Assembly (NCBI RefSeq): GCF_033880585.1
Contig: NZ_CP137624.1
Span: forward strand, 1,356,001 to 1,420,000
Reading direction: 5' to 3'
DNA: 64,000 nt
DNA from: Lysinibacillus louembei
GTDB lineage: Bacteria; Bacillota; Bacilli; Bacillales_A; Planococcaceae
Shown: positions 47,201-58,361 of the stretch, piece by piece
Layout of the letters: each line of letters opens with the position of its first letter
How positions within the stretch are numbered: position 1 is the first letter of the stretch
The notes under the pieces: generated by a model
Told to the model about the DNA's origin: nothing
The model's input: the letters and a program-made list of their open reading frames with translations, nothing else
Databases searched by the model: none
Made by a program: the position numbers and the translations under genes

Positions 47201-47330
47201 AAGTGACCGCAATGTATGTGGCACTAAGGTTAGCTATGAAATTGTGAGCTTCTAGCCATCTTGTACATCTCCAAAAAATTTTTTACGATGAATTGTAAAG
47301 AAATTATCTAACCTACTAGAGGTGAACGAT

Positions 47331-48035
47331 ATGGATCAAGAGGAGCTGCGGGTTAAAGATTATTTATTGCAAGGTATTTTTAATGGCTCATTTGCATTAG
47401 ATAATAAAATGCCTAGTGAGCTAGCATTAGTTGAACAATTTAAAGTGCCAAGAATAAAAATTCGCAATGTTTATCAATTTATTGAGAAAATGGGCTATAT
47501 TTATTCAAGGCAAGGGGTTGGGCGTTTTTTAAAGCATCAACGCAAGACGTTGGATGTGGTGATGACAGGTGATGTGAGTTTTAGTGACAAGATGCGTAAA
47601 CAAACGGCGAATTATAAATCCGTTGTGACGAAATTAGAGCGAGTGCCAACAGACCATGAGATTTATCATAGACCACAAATAATGTCAGCCTATACGATTT
47701 ATTTAGTGGAGCGCCTACGTTATCTCGATAATGAGCCTGCTGCTTTGCACCGTTCTTATGTGATCGCAGAGCATTTCCCACAAATAAAGCAAGCCGATAA
47801 TCGGCTCACATCAATGTATAACTTTTATAAAAGTAACGGTATTAACGCATTTCATAGTACATTTTCCAATTTATCAGTTTCCTTTCCGAATGAGCTAGAG
47901 CGTGCATTACTTAGCTGTGAGGTACTCGTTCCATTAGTAAAGGTGGAATCAGATAACTGGGATAAGGAACGAAATCAATTGCTTGAGTATACAGAGATTA
48001 TTTATCGCACAGACCGTTTCTCCTTTCAATTATAA
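47331..48035 (+). CDS. phnF: GntR/HutC-family regulator, PhnF-type
   Basis: A 234-residue regulator with an N-terminal winged helix (LQGIFNGSFALDNKMPSE, then LVEQFKVPRIKIRNVY and YSRQGVGRFL) and a C-terminal UTRA effector domain (YTIYLVERLRYLDNEPAALH). HutC-type members with this layout next to C-P lyase genes are called PhnF. The start is ATG 47331 after AGAGGTGA rather than the GTG at 47322. It precedes phnG by 141 bases but a strong terminator separates them, so it has its own transcript. It probably represses or tunes the phn operon; the effector could be a phosphonate or a pathway intermediate. Confidence 0.8.
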   Translation: MDQEELRVKDYLLQGIFNGSFALDNKMPSELALVEQFKVPRIKIRNVYQFIEKMGYIYSRQGVGRFLKHQRKTLDVVMTGDVSFSDKMRKQTANYKSVVTKLERVPTDHEIYHRPQIMSAYTIYLVERLRYLDNEPAALHRSYVIAEHFPQIKQADNRLTSMYNFYKSNGINAFHSTFSNLSVSFPNELERALLSCEVLVPLVKVESDNWDKERNQLLEYTEIIYRTDRFSFQL

Positions 48036-48080
48036 AAAGATTGCCTAGAGCAAATTTTGCTCTAGGCAATCTTTTTATTT
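48034..48080 (+). terminator. Terminator between phnF and phnG
   Basis: A stem of about 20 bp, AAAAGATTGCCTAGAGCAAA near 48035-48054 facing its complement near 48056-48075, with a long T tail. Confidence 0.9.
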
Positions 48081-48091
48081 GGCGCCATTTT

Positions 48092-48108
48092 TGTAAAGCT
48101 TCTTTACA
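48092..48108 (+). promoter_or_regulatory. Inverted repeat before phnG, candidate PhnF operator
   Basis: TGTAAAGCTTCTTTACA, two seven-base arms around CTT. Its right arm is also the first PhoP hexamer, so PhnF and PhoP could compete. Confidence 0.4.
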
Positions 48109-48137
48109 TATTCTTCACGAAACCTTTTCACTATGCT
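48103..48137 (+). promoter_or_regulatory. PHO box and -10 of the phn operon
   Basis: Hexamers TTTACA (48103), TTCACG (48114) and TTTTCA (48125) are spaced exactly 11 bp apart, the pattern of Bacillus PhoP sites (TT[ATC]A[CT]A repeats). TATGCT at 48132-48137 is a suitable -10, putting the hexamers at about -19, -30 and -41, where PhoP activates. This predicts induction by phosphate starvation. Confidence 0.6.
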
Positions 48138-48176
48138 ACTTGGCAACAAGTTAGGATGATGTTGAAAGGAGCTGGC

Positions 48177-48602
48177 ATGATGAAAAGAGCTGAGCGAACA
48201 AAGTTGTTAATCGAGGTAGGAAGTGAGCTTGCGTTACAACTAGCAGCTACGATTTGTGAACAGTATCAGGTAGAGGAAATTAGCCCACCAAAAGAGGGGC
48301 TCGTCATGATTAAAATGCGTGAAACAGCGCAGAAATCATTGTTTTATCTAGGAGAAGTGTTAGTAACAGAAACAAAAGTGAAGATTGGCAACTATTATGG
48401 AATTGGGTTAGTGAGGGAATCTGCGCCAGAATTATCGAAAGCCTTAGCGGTTATTGATGCAGCTTATGCGGCACAGCTACCAGAAACATATGCATGGGCT
48501 CCACATTTTGAGTTGCTAGCACAGCAGCTTGCTATAAATGAACAGCACATGAAACGTTCCATAGAGCGTACAAAAGTTAATTTCGATACGATGGCAACTT
48601 AA
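48177..48602 (+). CDS. phnG: C-P lyase core subunit PhnG
   Basis: A 141-residue subunit of the PhnGHIJ core complex, which turns phosphonates into ribose-1-phosphonate triphosphate derivatives and then breaks the C-P bond. Conserved elements are the Pro-rich PPKEGLVMIKMRETAQ near 40, FYLGEVLVTE and YYGIGLVRESAPE near 75. It lies first in the operon after a PHO box, with AAAGGAG before two adjacent ATGs (48177, 48180). PhnH follows after 12 bases. Confidence 0.9.
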   Translation: MMKRAERTKLLIEVGSELALQLAATICEQYQVEEISPPKEGLVMIKMRETAQKSLFYLGEVLVTETKVKIGNYYGIGLVRESAPELSKALAVIDAAYAAQLPETYAWAPHFELLAQQLAINEQHMKRSIERTKVNFDTMAT

Positions 48603-48614
48603 GGAGGGGTCAGG

Positions 48615-49187
48615 GTGGAAACAGTACACTTTACACAACGCGCATTTCGAACATTGTTAAATTGCTTTGCAAGACCAGGGACAGCTGGTGAATTGGAACG
48701 TGATTATTCAGTGGAAGGCTTATATGCAGAAACAATTACTGTTTGTATGACATTGCTTGATGGTGAAGTAAGCTTCCAAACAGCGGCTGAATGTCAGGAA
48801 ATTAACCAAGCAGTACGAGTATTGACAGGTGGACAAATCAAACCATTGGAACAGGCTGATTTCATTATCATTCCACATGGGACTAAAAAGGAGCAGCTAT
48901 TAGAGGCAATTGAAGCGGCAAAAGTAGGGGACCTCATTGATCCGCAAAAATCTGCGACAGTTATTATCGAATTGGATGAAATGACACCAACAATGACCGC
49001 ACAGCTTATGGGGCCAGGTATTGAAACAGTTGAAGTTGTAGAGCTAGCTATATGTGAAGAGCTTATTGCTTTACGTGCAAGTAAAAATAAGGAATTTCCA
49101 CTTGGCATCGATTGTATTTTGATTGAACAAAGCGGGCGAGTGATGGCACTGCCTCGTACAACAAGCGTAAAAGAGGTGACGAATTAA
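48615..49187 (+). CDS. phnH: C-P lyase core subunit PhnH
   Basis: A 190-residue core subunit with the vestigial PLP-transferase fold. Typical parts are the opening TQRAFRTLLNCFARPGTAG, VCMTLLDGEVSFQ near 45 and GPGIETVEVVEL near 135. The start is GTG at 48615, seven bases after AAGGAGGGG. Its TAA overlaps the phnI ATG by one base, as expected for subunits made in fixed ratio. Confidence 0.92.
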   Translation: METVHFTQRAFRTLLNCFARPGTAGELERDYSVEGLYAETITVCMTLLDGEVSFQTAAECQEINQAVRVLTGGQIKPLEQADFIIIPHGTKKEQLLEAIEAAKVGDLIDPQKSATVIIELDEMTPTMTAQLMGPGIETVEVVELAICEELIALRASKNKEFPLGIDCILIEQSGRVMALPRTTSVKEVTN

Positions 49188-50275
49188 TGGCATATGTAGC
49201 AGTTCGTGGTGGCGCAGAGGCAATTGAAGCATCATTAGAGCATTTACAGTATGAGCGCGTTAAGCAAGGAGCATATATAGCAGTTGATACATTGCAAGCA
49301 ACGATGCGTGGCTTTTTAGATCAAGTGATGTCGGAAAGTAGCTTATATAGTGAGCAACTAGCAGCACTGGCGATGAAGCAAAGTGAAGGCAATGTAGAGG
49401 AAGCTGTTTTCTTATTGCGTGCACATCGGTCAACATTGCCGAGATTGTATTATTCAACAGTGACAGATGCGCGCGAAATGTTTGTGTTACGTCGCATTTC
49501 CGCAAGTTTTAAAGATATTCCAGGTGGTCAAATTTTAGGGGCATCGCATGACTATTTACATCGCTTGCTTGATTTTGATTTATTGCAGGAAACAGCAGCA
49601 GACGTAATGGTGAAAAAAGCAAAATTTGAAGCGATTGAAGTGCCAGAGGAAAGCACATTACGCTTAGAAAATTTGCCGAAAGTAATGGATTATTTACGTG
49701 CAGAAGGCTTAATCAGAGAGTTTCCAGAAAACGATGCAGAGCCGAGTGATATTACGAAGGAAAGCATGACATTCCCAACGAATCGCTCACAGCGCCTGCA
49801 AACATTAACGCGAGGGCAAACAGGTACAGTTACATCGCTCGGCTATGCGGGCTTACGTGGCTATGGTGCATCACATCCGACAGTAGGCGAAGTGCGAGTA
49901 GGCTGGCAATCGCTTCATGTTGCCTTAGATGATGATGAAGATCCGTATTATATTGGTGCAATTAAACTAACGGAAGTTGAGTCATTTATTCCTGTCAATA
50001 TTGATAAGGAAGATAAGCAGGTGTTGGAGTTTGATATCGGCTATGGGGCTTGCTTTGGACAAAATGAAACGAAGGCAATTGCCATGTCAATCGTTGACCA
50101 TGCGCTAGAGGCAGGTGGAGATACACCAATTCATGATGAGGAATTTGTACTGCTACATGTAGATACGATTGAATCGACAGGCTTTATATCACATTTGAAA
50201 ATGCCGCATTATGTGACATTCCAATCGAAGCTTGAGCAAATGAGAACGATTAAAAAGGAGGGCAAAGCACTATGA
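49187..50275 (+). CDS. phnI: C-P lyase core subunit PhnI
   Basis: A 362-residue subunit that, with PhnG, H and L, displaces adenine from ATP to give ribose 5-triphosphate 1-phosphonates. The opening YVAVRGGAEAIEAS, LGYAGLRGYGASHPTVGEVRVG near 215 and DIGYGACFGQNETKAIAMS near 280 match the family. It overlaps phnH by one base and phnJ by four. Length is the family norm. Confidence 0.95.
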   Translation: MAYVAVRGGAEAIEASLEHLQYERVKQGAYIAVDTLQATMRGFLDQVMSESSLYSEQLAALAMKQSEGNVEEAVFLLRAHRSTLPRLYYSTVTDAREMFVLRRISASFKDIPGGQILGASHDYLHRLLDFDLLQETAADVMVKKAKFEAIEVPEESTLRLENLPKVMDYLRAEGLIREFPENDAEPSDITKESMTFPTNRSQRLQTLTRGQTGTVTSLGYAGLRGYGASHPTVGEVRVGWQSLHVALDDDEDPYYIGAIKLTEVESFIPVNIDKEDKQVLEFDIGYGACFGQNETKAIAMSIVDHALEAGGDTPIHDEEFVLLHVDTIESTGFISHLKMPHYVTFQSKLEQMRTIKKEGKAL

Positions 50276-51120
50276 GAGAAGTGCCGTTCGCATTATTAGA
50301 TGAACAGTCGAAAAAGGAAATTCGTCGAGCGATGTTAAAAGGTGTTGCCATTCCAGGCTATCAAGTGCCATTTGCTTCGCGTGAAATGCCGATTGGGTGT
50401 GGCTGGGGAACAGGTGGCCTACAGTTAACATTAGCGCTTGTTGGGAAGGAAGATATATTGAAAGTCATCGACCAAGGTGCAGATGATTCAGTGAATGCGG
50501 TCAATATTAAAAAGCTTGTACAAAAAACAACAGGTATCGAAACGACTACGCGTACCCAAGATGCATCGATTGTACAGTCACGTCACCGTATTCCAGAAGT
50601 GTCACTGACTAAGGAGCAAATTCTTGTGCTGCAAGTACCAGAGCCGGAGCCACTACGCCATATTGAGCGCAGTGAATATAAAACGAAGCGTTACCATGCG
50701 GAAAAAGAATATAGCGGCGCATATTTAATGTTATTTGAGCAAATTATGCGCTATAACCAAACGTCGCAAGGTGCAGATTATCCAGTTTTGGTTAATGATC
50801 GTTATGTCATGAATCCTAGCCCAATTCCGCGCTTTGACAATCCGAAAATTCATCAAAGTGAGACGCTGATGTTATTTGGAGCAGGTCGTGAGAAGAAGAT
50901 TTATGCAGTTCCTCCCTATACAAATGTGCAATCACTAGCCTTTGAGGACTATCCATTTGTTGTGGAGCAATTCGCAGGAAAGGCTTGTCGTGAAACAGGC
51001 TTATCCGATGTGTTCCTTGATGAACTAACAGATGAGACAACAGGTGAAACATACTATTTATGTAATGATACGAGCTATATGGAAGAGGTACTAGCGCGAA
51101 AGGTGGCTGTGCAGCAATGA
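50272..51120 (+). CDS. phnJ: C-P lyase radical SAM subunit PhnJ, with unusual cysteine set
   Basis: A 282-residue protein clearly PhnJ by AIPGYQVPF (with Gly29, equivalent to E. coli Gly32), GWGTGGLQLT, VIDQGADDSVNAVN and FGAGREKKIYAVPP. PhnJ is the radical SAM enzyme that breaks the C-P bond. E. coli PhnJ uses CX2CX21CX5C (Cys241, 244, 266, 272). Here the aligned residues are Cys239, Thr242, Cys264 and Met270, so two of four are replaced, as read directly at 50986-51080. An extra cysteine, Cys43, stands next to the glycine-rich GWGTGG where E. coli has tyrosine. The rest of the operon is intact, so a working but altered cluster site is more likely than decay. phnK overlaps by four bases. Confidence 0.93.
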   Translation: MREVPFALLDEQSKKEIRRAMLKGVAIPGYQVPFASREMPIGCGWGTGGLQLTLALVGKEDILKVIDQGADDSVNAVNIKKLVQKTTGIETTTRTQDASIVQSRHRIPEVSLTKEQILVLQVPEPEPLRHIERSEYKTKRYHAEKEYSGAYLMLFEQIMRYNQTSQGADYPVLVNDRYVMNPSPIPRFDNPKIHQSETLMLFGAGREKKIYAVPPYTNVQSLAFEDYPFVVEQFAGKACRETGLSDVFLDELTDETTGETYYLCNDTSYMEEVLARKVAVQQ

Positions 51121-51953
51121 AGGAACAACCGATTTTACAAGTTCAGAAGCTATCAAAGCAATACGGAAAAGGCTGTAGTCATTGCCAAGAAGGGACAGCA
51201 CAGCTAGAAAAAAACTTCTGCCCTATTTGTAAAACTGTCTATGCATGTCGTGATATTTCCTTTGAGTTGTATCGGGGTGAAATATTAGGTATCGTTGGCG
51301 AAAGTGGTAGTGGTAAATCAACGTTAATGAAGAGCTTATATTTTGATGAGCCTATTACGAGAGGTGTTGGTTTACTTGCAGATTTTGAGAATGGCACGGC
51401 GAATATTTTTGAGCAATCGCGCCAGCAGCAACGCCTTATTCGCAATACCATTCTTGGCATGGTATATCAAAACCCGATGCTCGGCTTAAATATGGAGTTT
51501 TCCTCAATGAGCAATATTGCGGAGAAGCAAATTGCAGCAGGTAATCGCCATGTGCACAATATGGAGCAACGAAGCTTAGAGCTATTAGAGCATGTTAATA
51601 TTCCGCTTTTTCGCAGTAAGGAAGCGCCAAAAAATTTCTCAGGTGGTATGCAGCAACGCGTGCAAATAGCGAAGGCATTATCGAATAATCCACCTGTGTT
51701 ATTGCTAGATGAGGTAACGACAGGCTTAGATTTATCAGTACAGGCGGATGTATTGGATTTAATTAAATCAATTCAACGTGAATTAAATATTTCGATGATT
51801 GTCGTGTCACACGATTTAGCGGTGATTCGCATGTTAGCAGACCGCACAATTGTGATGCTAAATGGTCAAATTATTGAGCATGGCTTAACGGATCAAGTGC
51901 TAGAAGACCCGCAGCATGCTTATACACAACAATTAGTGTACTCATTATTATAA
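51117..51953 (+). CDS. phnK: C-P lyase ABC protein PhnK with Cys-rich insert
   Basis: A 278-residue ABC-type ATPase that binds the PhnGHIJ core. Walker A is GESGSGKST near 62, the signature FSGGMQQRVQIA near 178 and Walker B LLLDEVTTGLDLS near 199. Between the first strand and the usual second strand lies an insert with Cys20, Cys23, Cys35 and Cys38 (CSHC and CPIC), absent in E. coli PhnK as I recall it, and looking like a zinc ribbon. phnM follows after 11 bases with AAGGGGG. Confidence 0.93.
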   Translation: MKEQPILQVQKLSKQYGKGCSHCQEGTAQLEKNFCPICKTVYACRDISFELYRGEILGIVGESGSGKSTLMKSLYFDEPITRGVGLLADFENGTANIFEQSRQQQRLIRNTILGMVYQNPMLGLNMEFSSMSNIAEKQIAAGNRHVHNMEQRSLELLEHVNIPLFRSKEAPKNFSGGMQQRVQIAKALSNNPPVLLLDEVTTGLDLSVQADVLDLIKSIQRELNISMIVVSHDLAVIRMLADRTIVMLNGQIIEHGLTDQVLEDPQHAYTQQLVYSLL

Positions 51954-51964
51954 GGGGGCTTTCC

Positions 51965-53137
51965 ATGTTTGCCATTGTGAACGGAGTAATTGTAACAGAG
52001 CAGCAATTTTTATATGACTATGTTGTCTTCATTGAGGGGACAACAATTCAGCAAATTGTCCATCAATCAGAGGCACAATTGGATGGGGTAGAGACGATTG
52101 ATGCAAATGGTGGTTATGTGTCGCCAGGCTTTGTCGATATTCATTCGGACTATATTGAAACAATTGTGAGTCCGCGTCCGAATTCAGTAATGAATATGAA
52201 TATCGGCTTGCGTGAGAGTGAGCGCATTTTAATGACACATGGCATTACAACAATTTTCCATTCATTGTCATACTACGGCGATGATAAATATTCACATAAA
52301 GCGATTCGCAATCCAGAAAATGTACAGAAGTGTGTTGATGCAATTAGTGCATCACATGACGAGCCACATTTAATTCGCCATCGTCTACATGCACGCTTTG
52401 AAATTGATTCAGTGGATCAATTGCAGCAGCTAGAGGAAAATATTTTAGATGGTAAAGTGCATTTGCTGTCATTTATGGATCATACGCCAGGGCAAGGGCA
52501 GTATCGCAACTTAGAAATTTATAAAGACATTATGCGCGGCTATCGCACAATGACAGATTACGAGGCAGATACGTTAATTAAAGAACAAATTGATAAGGAA
52601 AAAATTACGCTAGAAGATATTGAGCGTCTAAGCCGTCTAGCAATTTCACGCAATATTGCTGTTGCCTCACATGATGATGACGATGTACAAAAGCTCGCAC
52701 TTGTGCAGTCCTACGGTACGACAATTAGCGAGTTTCCGATTACATTAGATGTGGCGAAGGAAGCGAAAAGATTAGGGCTACAAACAATTGCAGGTGCACC
52801 GAATATTTTATTAGGCGGCTCCCATACAGGTAATTTAAGTGCAGCAGAGGCAGTTCAAGCGCATGTCATTGATATTATTTGCAGCGATTATTATCCACCA
52901 GCTATGCTACACGGTATTTTCGAGCTAGCCAATAAATATGAAGAGGATTTGCATGCTTTATTCCAGCTTGTCACAATCAATCCAGCGAGGGCAGTAAATA
53001 TGGCACATGAAATTGGCTCCATCACAGTAGGGAAAAAGGCAGACATAATTATTATTGAACAAATGGCAGATGGTTACCCTGTTGTAACTTCAACGATTGT
53101 TGACGGTAAAGTCATTTTACAAACAAATTATCGATAA
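51965..53137 (+). CDS. phnM: Ribose 1-methylphosphonate 5-triphosphate diphosphatase PhnM
   Basis: A 390-residue amidohydrolase-superfamily enzyme that removes pyrophosphate from the 5-triphosphate intermediate. Metal motifs are FVDIHSDYIE near 57, HALK-like FHSLSYYGD near 98, SFMDHTPGQG near 165, ASHDDDDVQK near 235 and ICSDYYPPAML near 308. It stands between phnK and phnL, the order phnK-M-L differing from E. coli K-L-M. Confidence 0.93.
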   Translation: MFAIVNGVIVTEQQFLYDYVVFIEGTTIQQIVHQSEAQLDGVETIDANGGYVSPGFVDIHSDYIETIVSPRPNSVMNMNIGLRESERILMTHGITTIFHSLSYYGDDKYSHKAIRNPENVQKCVDAISASHDEPHLIRHRLHARFEIDSVDQLQQLEENILDGKVHLLSFMDHTPGQGQYRNLEIYKDIMRGYRTMTDYEADTLIKEQIDKEKITLEDIERLSRLAISRNIAVASHDDDDVQKLALVQSYGTTISEFPITLDVAKEAKRLGLQTIAGAPNILLGGSHTGNLSAAEAVQAHVIDIICSDYYPPAMLHGIFELANKYEEDLHALFQLVTINPARAVNMAHEIGSITVGKKADIIIIEQMADGYPVVTSTIVDGKVILQTNYR

Positions 53138-53149
53138 GGAGGTGTGGGG

Positions 53150-53845
53150 ATGATTAGCGTAGAAAATTTGCAAAAAAGCTTCACGATTCATCATTTAAAT
53201 AAAACATTGCCTGCATTGCAAGGCATTTCATTTGATGTATCTGAAGGCAGATTTTTAGGGATTGTTGGTAAGAGTGGTAGTGGTAAATCAACGATTTTAA
53301 AGAGTATTTATCGCACATATGAGCCACAAATGGGCAAGATTTTATTTCAATCTGAGGTGTTTGGTACGATTGATTTAGTACGAGCGACACCGCGCGAAGT
53401 TGTTTATTTACGCAAGCATGAAATCGGCTACGTATCGCAATTTTTAAATGTTATGCCACGTACAACGGCATTGGAGCTAGTAGAGCAATCATTGCTTGAT
53501 TTAGGCGTATCAAAGTCAGAGGCAACGGTGAAGGCACAGGAAGCGCTGCGCCATTTTGATATCGATGAGGCGCTGTGGAATAGTTATCCTAATATGTTTT
53601 CAGGCGGTGAAAAGCTGCGCTTAAATATCGCCTGCGCAGTGGTTAAGGAACCGCGTTTATTGCTGTTGGATGAGCCGACAGCGAGCCTTGATCAATCGTC
53701 CAAATTAAAGGTACGTGAGGCGATAGAAAAGCTGAAGATGAATGGCACAACGTTAATCGGTATTTTTCATGATTTAGAGTTTATGGAAGGCTTATGTGAT
53801 AACGTTTTTGAAATGGCGAAAGTACAGGAGAGGGAGTTAGTATGA
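53150..53845 (+). CDS. phnL: C-P lyase ABC protein PhnL
   Basis: A 231-residue ABC ATPase related to LolD. Walker A is GKSGSGKST near 42, the signature [12 protein letters not shown] near 154 and Walker [14 protein letters not shown] near 173. PhnL is needed with PhnGHI for the nucleosidase step. ATG 53150 (seven bases after AAGGAGG) is preferred over GTG 53144. It overlaps the PHP gene by four bases. Confidence 0.93.
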
Positions 53846-54663
53846 TGAAGGTTGATTTGCATATGCATAGCACATATTCAGATGGCTCCACTACATTAGA
53901 AGAGCTATTTCAGCAAGCAAAGGCAGCTGGCTTAACGCATATTAGTGTTGTTGATCATGATACGCTTGACCATGTTGAAGAAGGGCAGCAGCTTGCGCAA
54001 AAATACGCACTTCATTTTATTCCTGGCATTGAAATTTCCGCATATGATTTTGAGCGTGGACGCAAGGTGCATATGCTTGGCTATCAATTGCATGGGGAAT
54101 GTGCGCATATTCGTCAGCTATGTCAACCATTGTTGACACGTCGCCATGAGCATACACTCTGGCAATTGCGCCAAATACAGGAGGCTGGCTTTGCGGTTAC
54201 AGAGGAGCAAGCATGCGAGCGTATTTCTAAAGCTGGTGTGCTTTACAAGCAGCATATTATGGCTGCTTTAACGACAACTGCTTTTGATTCGAAGGATTAT
54301 CAAACATTATATAAGTCATTGTTTAAAAATAACGGTGTAGCAGCAAGTGATATTCGTTATGTCGATGCCTTTGATGCGTTGCATGCGATTAAGGCAGATG
54401 GAGGAATTGCAGTTTTAGCACATCCAGGACAGCTCGATTCCTATGATATTGCTGAGCAACTAATTGCGGAAGGGCTGGATGGCATTGAGCTTGTACATCC
54501 AGACCATAACGAACATGATTATGAACGTATTGTAATGATGGCTAACAAGCATGGATTATTGATGACAGGTGGCTCTGATTTCCATGGTCGATATGGGATA
54601 GAAGTGACGCTTGGTAAGCATATTATGCAGCATTTACACATCCCAAGCTTTGTAAATGCTTAG
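53842..54663 (+). CDS. PHP-domain phosphoesterase, probable cyclic ribose phosphate phosphodiesterase (PhnPP-like)
   Basis: A 273-residue polymerase-and-histidinol-phosphatase-fold enzyme. Metal ligands are in [12 protein letters not shown] near residue 4, VVDHDTLD near 33, GIEISAYD near 64, LAHPGQLD near 191 and GGSDFHG near 247. In some C-P lyase loci a PHP enzyme of this type (PhnPP, characterised in Eggerthella lenta) opens 5-phosphoribosyl 1,2-cyclic phosphate and also removes the remaining phosphate, giving ribose 5-phosphate. There is no phnP or phnN in this locus, so that role fits well. It overlaps phnL by four bases and ends the catabolic block. Confidence 0.85.
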
Positions 54664-54773
54664 TTAATGATTATTAAGAAATAGCATAACTACTTTTATT
54701 ATTGGTGAATTATGATTAAATGTTGCATGTAGAGCAAGTCTACTAAATTTTGAGCAGAAAAAAGGAGAGTAAC

Positions 54774-55811
54774 ATGAGCAAAAAATTGGTTTTACTAATG
54801 ACAATGATTTTATGTGCAATTTTTCTAGCTGCTTGTAATTCAGAGGAAGGTGCAGCAAATGCTAAAATGAATGATCCATTAGTGATGGTTTGGTATCCAA
54901 ATGAATCTGGCTCTGAAATGGCAGGCGCACGCGATGCATTTGGCAAAATCTTTGAGGAAGCAACAGGTCGCAAAGTCGAGCAAAAATTAACGACAGATTA
55001 TGCGATTGCTATTGAATCGATTGCAAGTGGCAATGCACAAGTCGCATTCATGGGCCCGCAAGGCTATATTGAAGCGAACAATAAAAGCGCAGATGTGCAA
55101 CCAATTGTTGTGCCTTCTGGTAGTTCAGGAACATTAGAAGACGCAGTTTATTATAGCTGGTTAGCAGTACCAAAGGATAAAGCGGATGAATATAAAGTAA
55201 ATGGCGAATTTGCAATTGATACAATTGCAGGCAAAAAATTCTCATTCGTATCTGCATCGTCGACATCAGGCTTTAAAGTACCATCTAGCTCTATTATTGC
55301 TCATTTTACAAAACAAGATGCTTATAAAGCATTAACACAAGACGATTTAATCGAGGCAAATGCGTTATTCCCCGAAGTATTGTTTGGTGATTCTCATCAA
55401 GGGTCAGCGGTGAATATGATTATGGAGCGCGCAGATGTGGCGGCTTTCTGTGACACATGTGTTTCAGCATATGTTGACCTAGTAGAAGGAGAAGCGAATA
55501 CAGCAGGAGCGGTTTACCGTGTCAAAGATGATGCAGCAGCGCCATTTAATAATTTGCCAGGTGAAGAATTTGTATTGATTTCTGCAACGCCTGTATTAAA
55601 CTCACCATTCGTAGTAAATACGTCTGCGTTGACAGAGGAAGAAATTACGAAATTAACAGAGCTGCTAATTTCTGATGAAACTACAAATGACCCGACAATT
55701 TTCGTACCAAAAGATTCAGGAGAGATTGGGCTATTTTATAAATCAGGAGACGAGCGTTTTGTCAAAGTAGAGGATGCTTGGTTTGATCCGATTCGGAAAT
55801 TATCTGAATAA
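54774..55811 (+). CDS. phnD: Phosphonate ABC transporter substrate-binding lipoprotein
   Basis: A 345-residue lipoprotein. The signal peptide ends in FLAAC at about residue 20. The mature part is PhnD-like: LVMVWYPNESGSEMAGARDAF, ATGRKVEQKLTTDYAIAIES, QVAFMGPQGYIEAN near 85 and SASSTSGFKVPSS near 155 (phosphonate-contacting serines and threonines in the family). AAAGGAGAG before ATG 54774. A terminator-like hairpin follows, so more binding protein than membrane parts should be made. Confidence 0.93.
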   Translation: MSKKLVLLMTMILCAIFLAACNSEEGAANAKMNDPLVMVWYPNESGSEMAGARDAFGKIFEEATGRKVEQKLTTDYAIAIESIASGNAQVAFMGPQGYIEANNKSADVQPIVVPSGSSGTLEDAVYYSWLAVPKDKADEYKVNGEFAIDTIAGKKFSFVSASSTSGFKVPSSSIIAHFTKQDAYKALTQDDLIEANALFPEVLFGDSHQGSAVNMIMERADVAAFCDTCVSAYVDLVEGEANTAGAVYRVKDDAAAPFNNLPGEEFVLISATPVLNSPFVVNTSALTEEEITKLTELLISDETTNDPTIFVPKDSGEIGLFYKSGDERFVKVEDAWFDPIRKLSE

Positions 55812-55823
55812 AGTGAATGAACA

Positions 55824-55858
55824 GGGTGTCTGAAAAGCTTTTTAGACGCCCTTTTATT
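55824..55858 (+). terminator. Partial terminator between phnD and phnC
   Basis: GGGTGTCT at 55824-55831 pairs (one GU) with AGACGCCC at 55844-55851, with inner AAAAGCTTTT pairing, then TTTTATT. It lies inside the importer operon. Confidence 0.75.
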
Positions 55859-55881
55859 GAAAATAGAAAGGGAGAGCATTG

Positions 55882-56712
55882 ATGTCAACAATTACGTTAG
55901 AGCGTCCAACAAAGCAAGTGATGATGAAAGAAGCACCTATTGCTACCGAGACAGTATTAGAATTACGCAATATAGCGAAAAGCTATGATATGAAAACACT
56001 GATTATTCAAGATATTGATTTGCAGTTAAAGCAAGGTGAATTTGTATCGATTATTGGTCCATCAGGCGCAGGGAAATCAACATTGCTACGTTGCATTAAT
56101 CGCATGATTGAGCCAACGAGTGGGGACATCCTTTTTGATGGAATGAACATTACGCAATTAAATAAAGCATCATTACGCAAACAGCGTACCAAAATTGGCA
56201 TGGTGTTTCAGCATTATAATTTAGTTTCGCGTCTAACTGTATTTGAAAATGTATTGCATGGTCGCTTTGGCTATAAATCGACATTGCAAGGTATTTTAGG
56301 CCTGTATACAGAGGAAGAAAAAATGCTTGCATTGTCCATTTTAGAAAAGCTTGGTATGAAGGAGCATGTTTATAAGCGCTGCGACCAGTTAAGCGGTGGA
56401 CAAAAACAGCGTGTTGGTATTGCGCGAGCGCTAGTACAGCAACCGAAATTGCTATTATGTGATGAGCCGATTGCATCGCTTGATCCAAACTCCTCAAAGG
56501 TCATTATGGATCATTTAAAGGAAATTTCTCAATCGATGGGCATTACAGTGCTTGTAAATTTACACCAAGTAGATGTAGCGTTGAAATATTCGGATCGTAT
56601 CATTGGTTTAAATCGCGGCTCGAAATTGTTTGACGATATACCAAAACGCTTAAGCCAAATGGATATTCACGCAATTTACGGCGCAGAAGTCGATGAACTT
56701 ATTTTTGAATAG
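55882..56712 (+). CDS. phnC: Phosphonate ABC transporter ATP-binding protein
   Basis: A 276-residue ATPase of the phosphonate importer. Walker A GPSGAGKST near 56, Q-loop MVFQHYN, signature LSGGQKQRVGIARAL near 173 and Walker B LLLCDEPIASLDP near 193. The RLTVFENVLHGRFGY segment is typical of PhnC. ATG 55882 follows AAAGGGAGAG. It is longer at the N-terminus than usual by about 25 residues. phnE follows after 18 bases. Confidence 0.93.
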   Translation: MSTITLERPTKQVMMKEAPIATETVLELRNIAKSYDMKTLIIQDIDLQLKQGEFVSIIGPSGAGKSTLLRCINRMIEPTSGDILFDGMNITQLNKASLRKQRTKIGMVFQHYNLVSRLTVFENVLHGRFGYKSTLQGILGLYTEEEKMLALSILEKLGMKEHVYKRCDQLSGGQKQRVGIARALVQQPKLLLCDEPIASLDPNSSKVIMDHLKEISQSMGITVLVNLHQVDVALKYSDRIIGLNRGSKLFDDIPKRLSQMDIHAIYGAEVDELIFE

Positions 56713-56730
56713 GGTTAGGCGGAGGAAACA

Positions 56731-57519
56731 ATGACAACACGCAATTTTTTAAGAATGAAAAAATGGAAGATGACAGGCATTATTATGTTGTTATTAGTAA
56801 TCACATATGGCTCTTCGATGGTAACAAATTTTAATATATGGCAAGGTGTAAAATCTGTGCCAGGAACGATTACATGGATTATGACTAATTTAATACCGGA
56901 TGCAGAGGCAATGGCAAATTTACCGAAAGTGTTATCCCGCTTATGGGAAACGATTGTTTTATCGGTCATCGCATCGACAACTGCTGCGGTTTTTGCTTTC
57001 TTTTTTGCTATCTTCGGCTCTAAAACGACACAACTGAATCGTCCTTTAGCCTTTTGTACGCGTTTAATTGCTTCGATTTTTCGTAATATTCCTGTTGTAG
57101 CATGGGCGCTAGTGCTTGTTATTTCATTTGGTCATAATGTCGTGACAGGCTATTTCGCTCTTTTTATTTCAACATTTGGGACGTTAGTGCGGATGTTTGT
57201 AGAAACGATTGATGAAGCAAGCGCAGATGGGGTTGAGGCTTTGAATGCGACAGGTGCTACGTATTTTCAAATGGTTTTTAAAGGTGTTTTACCAGATACA
57301 ATGCCTCAAATGCTCAGCTGGCTCTTTTATATGATTGAAACGAATATACGCAGTGCCACATTGATTGGTTTATTAACAGGAACGGGCATAGGTTATTTAT
57401 TCGACCTACACTATAAGCGATTAGACTATGGCACGCTTGGATTAATTACATTATCCATTATTGTTATTGTCATCGCAATTGAGTTTACATCGAATAAAGT
57501 AAGGAGGATGATTTTATAA
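56731..57519 (+). CDS. phnE: Phosphonate ABC transporter permease PhnE (first)
   Basis: A 262-residue inner-membrane subunit with about six helices and the coupling motif EASADGVEALNATGATYFQMV near residue 155, followed by GVLPDTMPQ. The GGAGG site precedes ATG 56731. It shares a one-base TAATG overlap with the second permease, with which it forms the pore. Confidence 0.92.
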   Translation: MTTRNFLRMKKWKMTGIIMLLLVITYGSSMVTNFNIWQGVKSVPGTITWIMTNLIPDAEAMANLPKVLSRLWETIVLSVIASTTAAVFAFFFAIFGSKTTQLNRPLAFCTRLIASIFRNIPVVAWALVLVISFGHNVVTGYFALFISTFGTLVRMFVETIDEASADGVEALNATGATYFQMVFKGVLPDTMPQMLSWLFYMIETNIRSATLIGLLTGTGIGYLFDLHYKRLDYGTLGLITLSIIVIVIAIEFTSNKVRRMIL

Positions 57520-58361
57520 TGACACAAGTATCTTTGCTGCAAGGCATTCATATGAAAAATGGCAAAATTAAAACACGCACATTGACAAAGGCGACTGTTA
57601 CTGTGCGAGCTGTCATTATATTTTTATCGATCTTTACATTCGTCGGCCCTTTTTTATTAAAGTATGCGGCGATTGACTGGCCAACAGCGATTGTCTATAC
57701 ATTAGATAATTTAAAGATGATGTTTTTACAGCCTGCCTTTAATCAAATTACATTTAGTACAGCAATAACGCAAATTTTAATTACCCTCTCCTTAGCTTTT
57801 TTGGCAACGATACTGGGGGCAGTTCTGTCCTTTTTCTTAGCGATTAGCACAGCAAAAAATTTAGCACCCGCAAGTCTATCCAATGCAATCATTGCATTTA
57901 ATTCGGTCATTCGTGCAGTACCGACAGTGCTTTGGGTATTAATTTTTGCTATTGTCGCAGGACTTGGTGCTGTAGCGGCAGTACTTGGGATGATGTTGCA
58001 TACAATGGCTTATTTAACGAAGGCTTATGCGGAGTCCTTTGAGGAAATTGAGGAGGGTACAATTGAGGCATTGCGCGCAGCTGGTGCCAATTGGTGGCAT
58101 ATTATTTTCCATTGCGTTGTGCCACAATCAGCTTCTTATCTCGTATCATGGACGTTTTTACGCTTTGAAACGAACTATGGTGTTGCGATTGCGATGGGAG
58201 CAGCGGCAGCAGCAGGGGGAATCGGCTTTGAGCTCTTTATGTCCTCAAGCTTCTATTATGACTTACATGAGGTCGGTATGATTACGTATTGTGCGCTAAT
58301 TGTAGCGATTGTGCTAGAAGTAATGGCATTGCAAATAAAAAAGCATTTGACGACACATTAA
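57519..58361 (+). CDS. phnE2: Phosphonate ABC transporter permease PhnE (second)
   Basis: A 280-residue permease partner with about six helices and EEIEEGTIEALRAAGANWW near residue 178, then CVVPQSASYL, the EAA loop that docks on PhnC. AAGGAGG lies 11 bases before the ATG. The gene closes the operon at a strong terminator. Two different PhnE proteins in tandem are usual in Firmicutes and some proteobacteria. Confidence 0.92.
   Translation: MTQVSLLQGIHMKNGKIKTRTLTKATVTVRAVIIFLSIFTFVGPFLLKYAAIDWPTAIVYTLDNLKMMFLQPAFNQITFSTAITQILITLSLAFLATILGAVLSFFLAISTAKNLAPASLSNAIIAFNSVIRAVPTVLWVLIFAIVAGLGAVAAVLGMMLHTMAYLTKAYAESFEEIEEGTIEALRAAGANWWHIIFHCVVPQSASYLVSWTFLRFETNYGVAIAMGAAAAAGGIGFELFMSSSFYYDLHEVGMITYCALIVAIVLEVMALQIKKHLTTH

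Follow-up and report, generated by a model that had tools for sequence, protein, structure and literature searches.

The closest described relative of the protein analyzed here is PhnJ of the Escherichia coli C-P lyase complex, Phn(GHIJ)2K(L) (PDB 4XB6 and 7Z15-7Z19). In the sections of the literature drawn on here, E. coli PhnJ is assigned an Fe4S4 cluster on Cys241, Cys244, and Cys266, with Cys272 bearing a thiyl radical and Gly32 a glycyl radical; zinc instead of a cluster is also mentioned (PMC9947105; PMC7916636; PMC11978286). The cluster site lies about 30 Å from Gly32, a separation described in print as unexplained (PMC9947105; PMC7916636), and cryo-EM places PhnJ Arg107, His108, and Gln124 around a zinc ion and ligand (PMC9947105). 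The catalytic role of the cluster and Cys272 in E. coli is reported second-hand in these sections (PMC11978286; PMC7916636). One paper took four conserved cysteines as support for the identity of its PhnJ (PMC11978286), and another designed Vibrio primers on the four-cysteine region. In the portions of the open-licence literature covered (PMC9947105, PMC11978286, PMC12413358, PMC7916636, PMC7017551, and PMC12712341), a scope that lies outside the original E. coli PhnJ papers, we found no report of a PhnJ lacking these cysteines. Within the portions covered of the literature on glyphosate and Lysinibacillus, activity is not tied to the phnJ gene described below.

The phosphonate operon of Lysinibacillus louembei and its PhnJ

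The window, the whole 64,000-nucleotide stretch of L. louembei DNA that we analyzed, contains a 13-gene phosphonate operon on the plus strand (47322-58361). A phnF-like GntR/UTRA regulator gene (47322..48035; PF07702 and PF00392), found directly upstream of phnG in 15/15 scored loci, is followed by phnG (48156..48602; PF06754, 101 bits), phnH (48615..49187; PF05845, 155 bits), phnI (49187..50275; PF05861, 448 bits), phnJ (50272..51120), and phnK (51117..51953), which encodes a non-transporter ABC ATPase. Downstream are phnM (51965..53137), assigned to the amidohydrolase family by Pfam and with a relative annotated as phnM in a Mesobacillus foraminis record (L097); phnL (53144..53845), an ABC ATPase by Pfam; a PHP-domain phosphoesterase gene (53842..54663; PF02811); and the phosphonate ABC transporter genes phnD, phnC, phnE, and phnE (54750..58361). 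The transporter assignments come from the translations and from a gene order shared with L097, in which these genes are annotated as phnD, phnC, permease, and permease. With phnG, -H, -I, -J, -K, -L, and -M and a phosphonate transporter all present, the gene set of the C-P lyase pathway is complete, as an initial sequence-only reading of this DNA had stated; its description of the genes as overlapping held in part, as short gaps separate some neighbors. Relative to the E. coli operon, the window has a four-cysteine insert in PhnK, a PHP-domain enzyme, and phnM before phnL. By its place, the PHP-domain phosphoesterase is a candidate for the cyclic-phosphate step performed elsewhere by PhnP, presumably in the manner of PhnPP-type enzymes.

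The phnJ frame starts with ATG, encodes 282 amino acids, and shares 4 bases with phnI at its upstream end and 4 with phnK at its downstream end. Its product matches the PhnJ family of Pfam (PF06007) over residues 5 to 274, scoring 446.3 bits (cut-off, 25), and its homology to E. coli PhnJ extends over residues 5 to 272 (327 bits). It is the only PhnJ match in the genome and differs by one residue from that of a Metasolibacillus record (100% identity after rounding). Equivalents of E. coli Gly32, Arg107, His108, and Gln124 are all present, with Gly29 corresponding to Gly32, and the neighboring subunits of the complex are likewise shared with E. coli. The E. coli-type CX2CX21CX5C motif, which comprises the three cluster ligands and Cys272, is not conserved. 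Both a phmmer comparison with E. coli PhnJ (4xb6_D) and a multiple alignment place E. coli Cys241, Cys244, Cys266, and Cys272 opposite window Cys239 (50986..50988), Thr242 (50995..50997), Cys264 (51061..51063), and Met270 (51079..51081), respectively, confirming the assignments of the sequence-only reading, including methionine at the site of the proposed thiyl-radical residue. Relative to E. coli PhnJ, the window protein thus lacks Cys244 and Cys272, and other proteins of the type described below also lack Cys266.

Misalignment or sequencing error as the cause of the missing cysteines is already refuted. We found no point in its favor; residues flanking the cysteine sites align closely, independent genomes and named records agree on the loss, and the same loss occurs in three groups. 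The nearest four-cysteine comparisons are Firmicutes PhnJ proteins with CCCC at these sites instead of CTCM, 71% (L097) and 76% (L015) identical to window PhnJ; both operons encode the same PhnK insert as the window, and L015 has the same gene order. L015 is titled Roseburia sp. 1XD42-34, and its PhnJ falls among Bacilli on trees, so that the record may be misnamed or the contig foreign.

Besides Cys239 and Cys264, window PhnJ contains one other cysteine, Cys43 (TGT, 50398..50400), which the sequence-only reading had placed near the Gly32 equivalent and considered as a new radical or cluster residue. Cys43 lies 14 residues beyond Gly29, farther than that reading implied, at the position of E. 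coli Tyr46. This column has Arg in 123 of the 132 distinct complete PhnJ proteins, Tyr in 7, Ser in 1, and Cys in 1 (broken copy L149 excluded), and the cysteine results from a single-base change, CGT to TGT, private to the window genome among the sequences compared. A same-species record (L002) and a same-genus one (L114) have the Arg codon CGT, which led us to reject Cys43 as a co-varying new site. Because the change is private, Cys43 is unrelated to the loss of Thr242- and Met270-site cysteines, and a radical or cluster role for it is unsupported. At a loop position that is usually Arg, Cys43 may weaken the enzyme of this strain.

Distribution and origins of Cys-poor PhnJ

PhnJ was found in 21/398 genomes of a phylum-level set, 24/398 at class level, 54/261 at order level, 47/200 at family level, 3/32 of genus code g273 (Lysinibacillus-like by tree placement), 3/108 of family f146, and 17/33 of family f175, with these sets overlapping. 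Further sources were 14 named genome contigs and 23 scored plasmid regions. Outside the Firmicutes, the survey covered plasmid regions only: among 215 plasmid records matching PhnJ, 24 regions were fetched, one (L094) was dropped, and the 23 scored include one from the Firmicute Mesobacillus. Several were chosen for their closeness to the Thermus PhnJ and the divergent Rhizobium PhnJ, so counts for those phyla are not rates. Excluded before the census were a copy reaching the end of a contig piece (L036), two with split frames (L040 and L094), the broken copy of genome G898 (L149), and eight duplicate contigs identical over the domain (L112, L113, L115-L117, and L120-L122). G898 belongs to the same family as the window genome, and the other phnJ genes read from its genus code, g270, encode all four cysteines.

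Among the 132 distinct complete PhnJ proteins, 82 have all four motif cysteines and 50 lack two or three of them (Cys-poor); none lacks exactly one. The second and fourth cysteines are missing jointly in 50/50 Cys-poor proteins and the third in 31/50, while the first, equivalent to E. coli Cys241, is retained in all 50 and in 132/132 overall. The loss exceeds chance, since it is shared by 50 of the 132 proteins and always affects the second and fourth positions together. The sequence-only reading had recognized neither how widespread the type is, nor its probable repeated origin, nor that the first cysteine alone is always kept. The motif states are CSTM (19 proteins), CTCM (18), CSLG (4), CTTM (2), CSVG (2), and, once each, CTCL, CSAM, CTVM, CSLA, and CTIM. 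Thr or Ser invariably fills the second place; at the fourth, Bacilli and Thermus have Met or Leu, and Alphaproteobacteria have Gly or Ala. In 26 of the 50, the first cysteine is the sole cysteine across the columns of window residues 5 to 274.

Cys-poor hosts include a Lysinibacillus/Solibacillus/Ureibacillus/Metasolibacillus group (the main Bacilli group) and two other Bacilli families, and Cys-poor PhnJ also occurs on plasmids of Thermus and Alphaproteobacteria. At the order level, PhnJ was readable in 53 genomes, of which 21 are Cys-poor and 32 encode four cysteines (one more, G898, is broken), and every PhnJ found in Bacilli families f146 and f175 is Cys-poor (20/20). The Cys264 equivalent is retained in 19/21 members of the main Bacilli group; L008 and L119 of this group are CTTM, and the third cysteine is missing in the two other Bacilli families as well. 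PhnJ of Thermus thermophilus pHB8c and of alphaproteobacterial plasmids (L092, L106, L088, L100-L104, and L110) shows the same loss as the window, with the first cysteine kept and Thr or Ser in second place; it differs in also lacking the third cysteine and, in Alphaproteobacteria, in having Gly or Ala fourth.

Some plasmid records had other peculiarities. The Microvirga sp. VF16 plasmid (L104) has nine PhnJ-matching places by tblastn. NZ_CP134663.1 (L090), listed as an E. coli plasmid, is 4.9 Mb and probably a chromosome. A divergent phnGHIJKL set on plasmids of Proteus mirabilis (L086) and Rhizobium sp. ZX09 (L095) is preceded by an iron-type ABC transporter and a hypothetical gene, with no phnM in the stretch shown; the two PhnJ proteins are 43.6% and 49.8% identical to window PhnJ, respectively, and have four cysteines.

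Phylogenetic analysis suggests that the Cys-poor type probably arose more than once. On a quick tree of PhnI, the PhnJ core, and PhnK (60 rows), two changes were needed and a single Cys-poor clade was rejected (p-AU 1e-6). The two Bacilli groups were joined (support 98) and nested inside four-cysteine Firmicutes, with Thermus and Alphaproteobacteria apart from Bacilli. PhnI alone also rejected one origin (quick tree, 78 rows; p 0.0086). The PhnJ core alone was weaker evidence, with p-AU values for one origin of 0.0484 (87 rows), 0.0161 (81 rows), and 0.0952 (96 rows), so that one origin was not rejected at 5% on the largest set. That tree, built without the C-terminal domain, recovered three clades: main Bacilli (100/98), the other two Bacilli families jointly (100/97), and Thermus with Alphaproteobacteria (100/98); a single clade of the two Bacilli groups was not rejected on PhnJ (p 0.157 with 81 rows and 0.522 with 96 rows). 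Rows had been thinned at identities above 96.5% (87-, 81-, and 78-row sets), 95% (96-row set), or 86% (60-row set). Long-branch rows L034, L059, L086, L089, L095, and L108 were left out of the 81-, 78-, 96-, and 60-row sets, L035 and the fragment L149 also out of the 96- and 60-row sets, and the gappy L024 also out of the 60-row set. Since the combined tree and PhnI reject one origin more firmly than PhnJ does, two origins are well supported by the operon but not by PhnJ alone.

Selection on Cys-poor PhnJ and the search for a replacement metal site

Loss of the cysteines could signal decay, with the phn operon dying in Cys-poor lineages, and the broken phnJ of G898, together with the private Arg43Cys change in the window genome, would be in keeping with this, although the G898 genus otherwise encodes four-cysteine PhnJ. 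We compared pairwise Nei-Gojobori dN/dS in the 107-row set for pairs with core dS of 0.1 to 1.6, covering the main Bacilli group and four-cysteine Firmicutes. Median values in the main Bacilli group were 0.035 for the core (28 pairs; maximum, 0.083) and 0.101 for the C-terminal domain (21 pairs; maximum, 0.171), no higher than those in four-cysteine Firmicutes (0.051 for 87 pairs and 0.148 for 71 pairs, respectively). Neither dN/dS near 1 among main Bacilli pairs nor frequent broken copies of Cys-poor phnJ in the census were seen. Frames are intact across genera, all 13 genes are present, and window phnJ itself, with an open frame and low dN/dS in its group, does not have the marks of a pseudogene. 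Decay is thus highly improbable.

The order F-G-H-I-J-K-M-L-PHP-D-C-E-E is found in 13/13 Cys-poor Bacilli loci scored and in four-cysteine L015; three more Cys-poor loci (L004, L010, and L012) have the same operon as far as their contigs reach, and four-cysteine L097 has the PHP gene elsewhere, upstream. Because the largest intergenic gap among the 13 Cys-poor operons is 543 bases, no sizeable gene has been added to them, leaving no room for an additional radical-generating gene. Window residues Gly29, Arg104, His105, and Gln121 of PhnJ are retained in 50/50 Cys-poor proteins, as are the PhnI zinc-binding histidines (336 and 341; E. coli His328 and His333) in 50/50 Cys-poor loci. The retained active-site and zinc residues, the low dN/dS, and the unchanged operon in Bacilli indicate that the Cys-poor complex, which lacks the four-cysteine metal site of PhnJ, probably works as a C-P lyase, an activity that we infer from conservation. 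On this point, the suggestion that the L. louembei gene is a working variant and not a product of decay gains from the 13-gene operon, the catalytic residues, dN/dS in the main Bacilli group, and the clade-wide state.

A replacement for the missing ligands might lie in PhnK, which docks on PhnJ. Window PhnK carries a CX2C..CX2C insert (Cys20, Cys23, Cys35, and Cys38) between the first strand and Walker A that is absent from E. coli PhnK, and its four cysteines are kept in 41/41 Cys-poor Bacilli PhnK proteins, so that the insert could supply the missing cluster in trans. However, the same insert accompanies 69 of 74 four-cysteine PhnJ proteins (four partners lack it and one, L093, is unreadable), and it is present in 0/7 readable partners of Cys-poor PhnJ from Thermus and Alphaproteobacteria (L101 unreadable and L106 not found), unlike the window. 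Of the 107 loci, 9 yielded no PhnK and 3 an unreadable one. We rejected the insert as a general replacement on these grounds, and supply of a cluster in trans is accordingly a quite unlikely explanation. As an observation in its own right, the insert occurs in the Firmicutes PhnK proteins read and on Marinobacter, Thiothrix, and Arthrobacter plasmids (L087, L089, L107, and L109) and is absent from E. coli, Oceanisphaera, Nostoc, Proteus, Thermus, and Cys-poor alphaproteobacterial plasmids; it may be a zinc ribbon within this non-transporter ABC subunit of the C-P lyase.

A scan of PhnJ, PhnI, and PhnK found no gain of Cys or His shared by the Bacilli and the Thermus/alphaproteobacterial groups. 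Gains confined to one group included PhnI His19 and His305 (main Bacilli), PhnJ 198 and PhnI 202 (Thermus/Alphaproteobacteria), and PhnK Cys241 (two other Bacilli families). PhnK position 73 (51333-51335) immediately follows Walker A, and 53 of 74 partners of four-cysteine PhnJ have Cys there (2 without data). For partners of Cys-poor PhnJ, Cys occurs at this position in 2/21 of the main Bacilli group, 0/20 of the other Bacilli families, and 0/7 with data from Thermus and Alphaproteobacteria, and Ser, Met, or Thr takes its place in 39/41 Cys-poor Bacilli. As a correlate of cysteine loss in PhnJ, position 73 is a weak lead because of the counterexamples and shared ancestry; the change may be a single ancestral one.

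The remaining place for a cluster is PhnJ itself, where the sequence-only reading had considered a different one. By the rules of radical SAM chemistry, a protein with one cysteine cannot by itself hold a three-cysteine SAM-type cluster. With 26 of 50 Cys-poor proteins reduced to a single cysteine, the type in general is unlikely to carry a different cluster on PhnJ. A smaller or different cluster, held by the two cysteines still present together with other ligands, might exist solely in the Bacilli CTCM group, in line with retention of Cys264 in most of the main group; the CTTM state of the close relatives L008 and L119 and the frequency of single-cysteine PhnJ elsewhere argue against this, and we consider it unlikely. 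Thus, the earlier interpretation survives as regards a working variant but not as regards Cys43 or a different cluster.

A proposed accessory role for the four-cysteine site

On balance, our analyses favor Cys-poor PhnJ as a natural type that lacks the C-terminal four-cysteine metal site and probably still functions within a complete complex as its C-P lyase subunit. In this model, the Cys-poor complex would still cleave C-P bonds at the PhnI/PhnJ zinc pocket, and the four-cysteine site would be an accessory metal site, either structural zinc or an auxiliary Fe-S cluster, replaceable by packing residues (Thr or Ser and Met, Leu, Gly, or Ala). Zinc ribbons have similarly been lost in some ribosomal proteins. 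A structure model of PhnJ from a 15-row alignment had a mean pLDDT of 43.6, too poor to use for the packing of Thr242 and Met270. If the four-cysteine site is dispensable and C-P cleavage continues, the Cys-poor type would have no need of a Cys272 thiyl radical, or of a PhnJ that holds a SAM-binding [4Fe-4S] cluster. Should any PhnJ thiol act in the chemistry, the equivalent of Cys241 would be the only candidate because it is the only cysteine never lost, and its strict retention could also be structural.

A different possibility is that Cys-poor complexes perform another step on ribosyl phosphonates or phosphates without radical C-P cleavage, with PhnJ as a binding scaffold. The absence of Cys272 and of at least one cluster ligand in 50/50 Cys-poor proteins would fit such a role, but all 50 have identical substrate-contact residues and the Gly32 equivalent, and the operons of the 13 scored Cys-poor Bacilli loci retain the phnDCEE transporter and PhnM. 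We regard this possibility as rather doubtful. An accessory and dispensable four-cysteine site is the simplest reading of the sequence comparisons for these lineages. The parts that the Cys-poor type drops are those whose place in the published scheme was doubtful; the zinc pocket and Gly32 are kept.

Only tentatively can this be extended to all C-P lyases. In that case, the four-cysteine site would be accessory everywhere, and C-P cleavage would require neither a cluster on PhnJ cysteines nor a Cys272 thiyl radical but zinc-pocket chemistry with at most one conserved thiol, Cys241, the replacement of Cys by Thr or Ser and by Met or Gly having been made by nature at least twice.

The occurrence of a complete C-P lyase in which a key subunit lacks the cluster and radical cysteines suggests that not every C-P lyase follows the textbook mechanism. 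A widespread PhnJ type in which these cysteines are absent and the active site is otherwise intact makes the dispute over the cluster and Gly32 testable. Furthermore, surveys of methane production from methylphosphonate that rely on the four cysteines, or on primers to the four-cysteine region, would miss the Cys-poor type.
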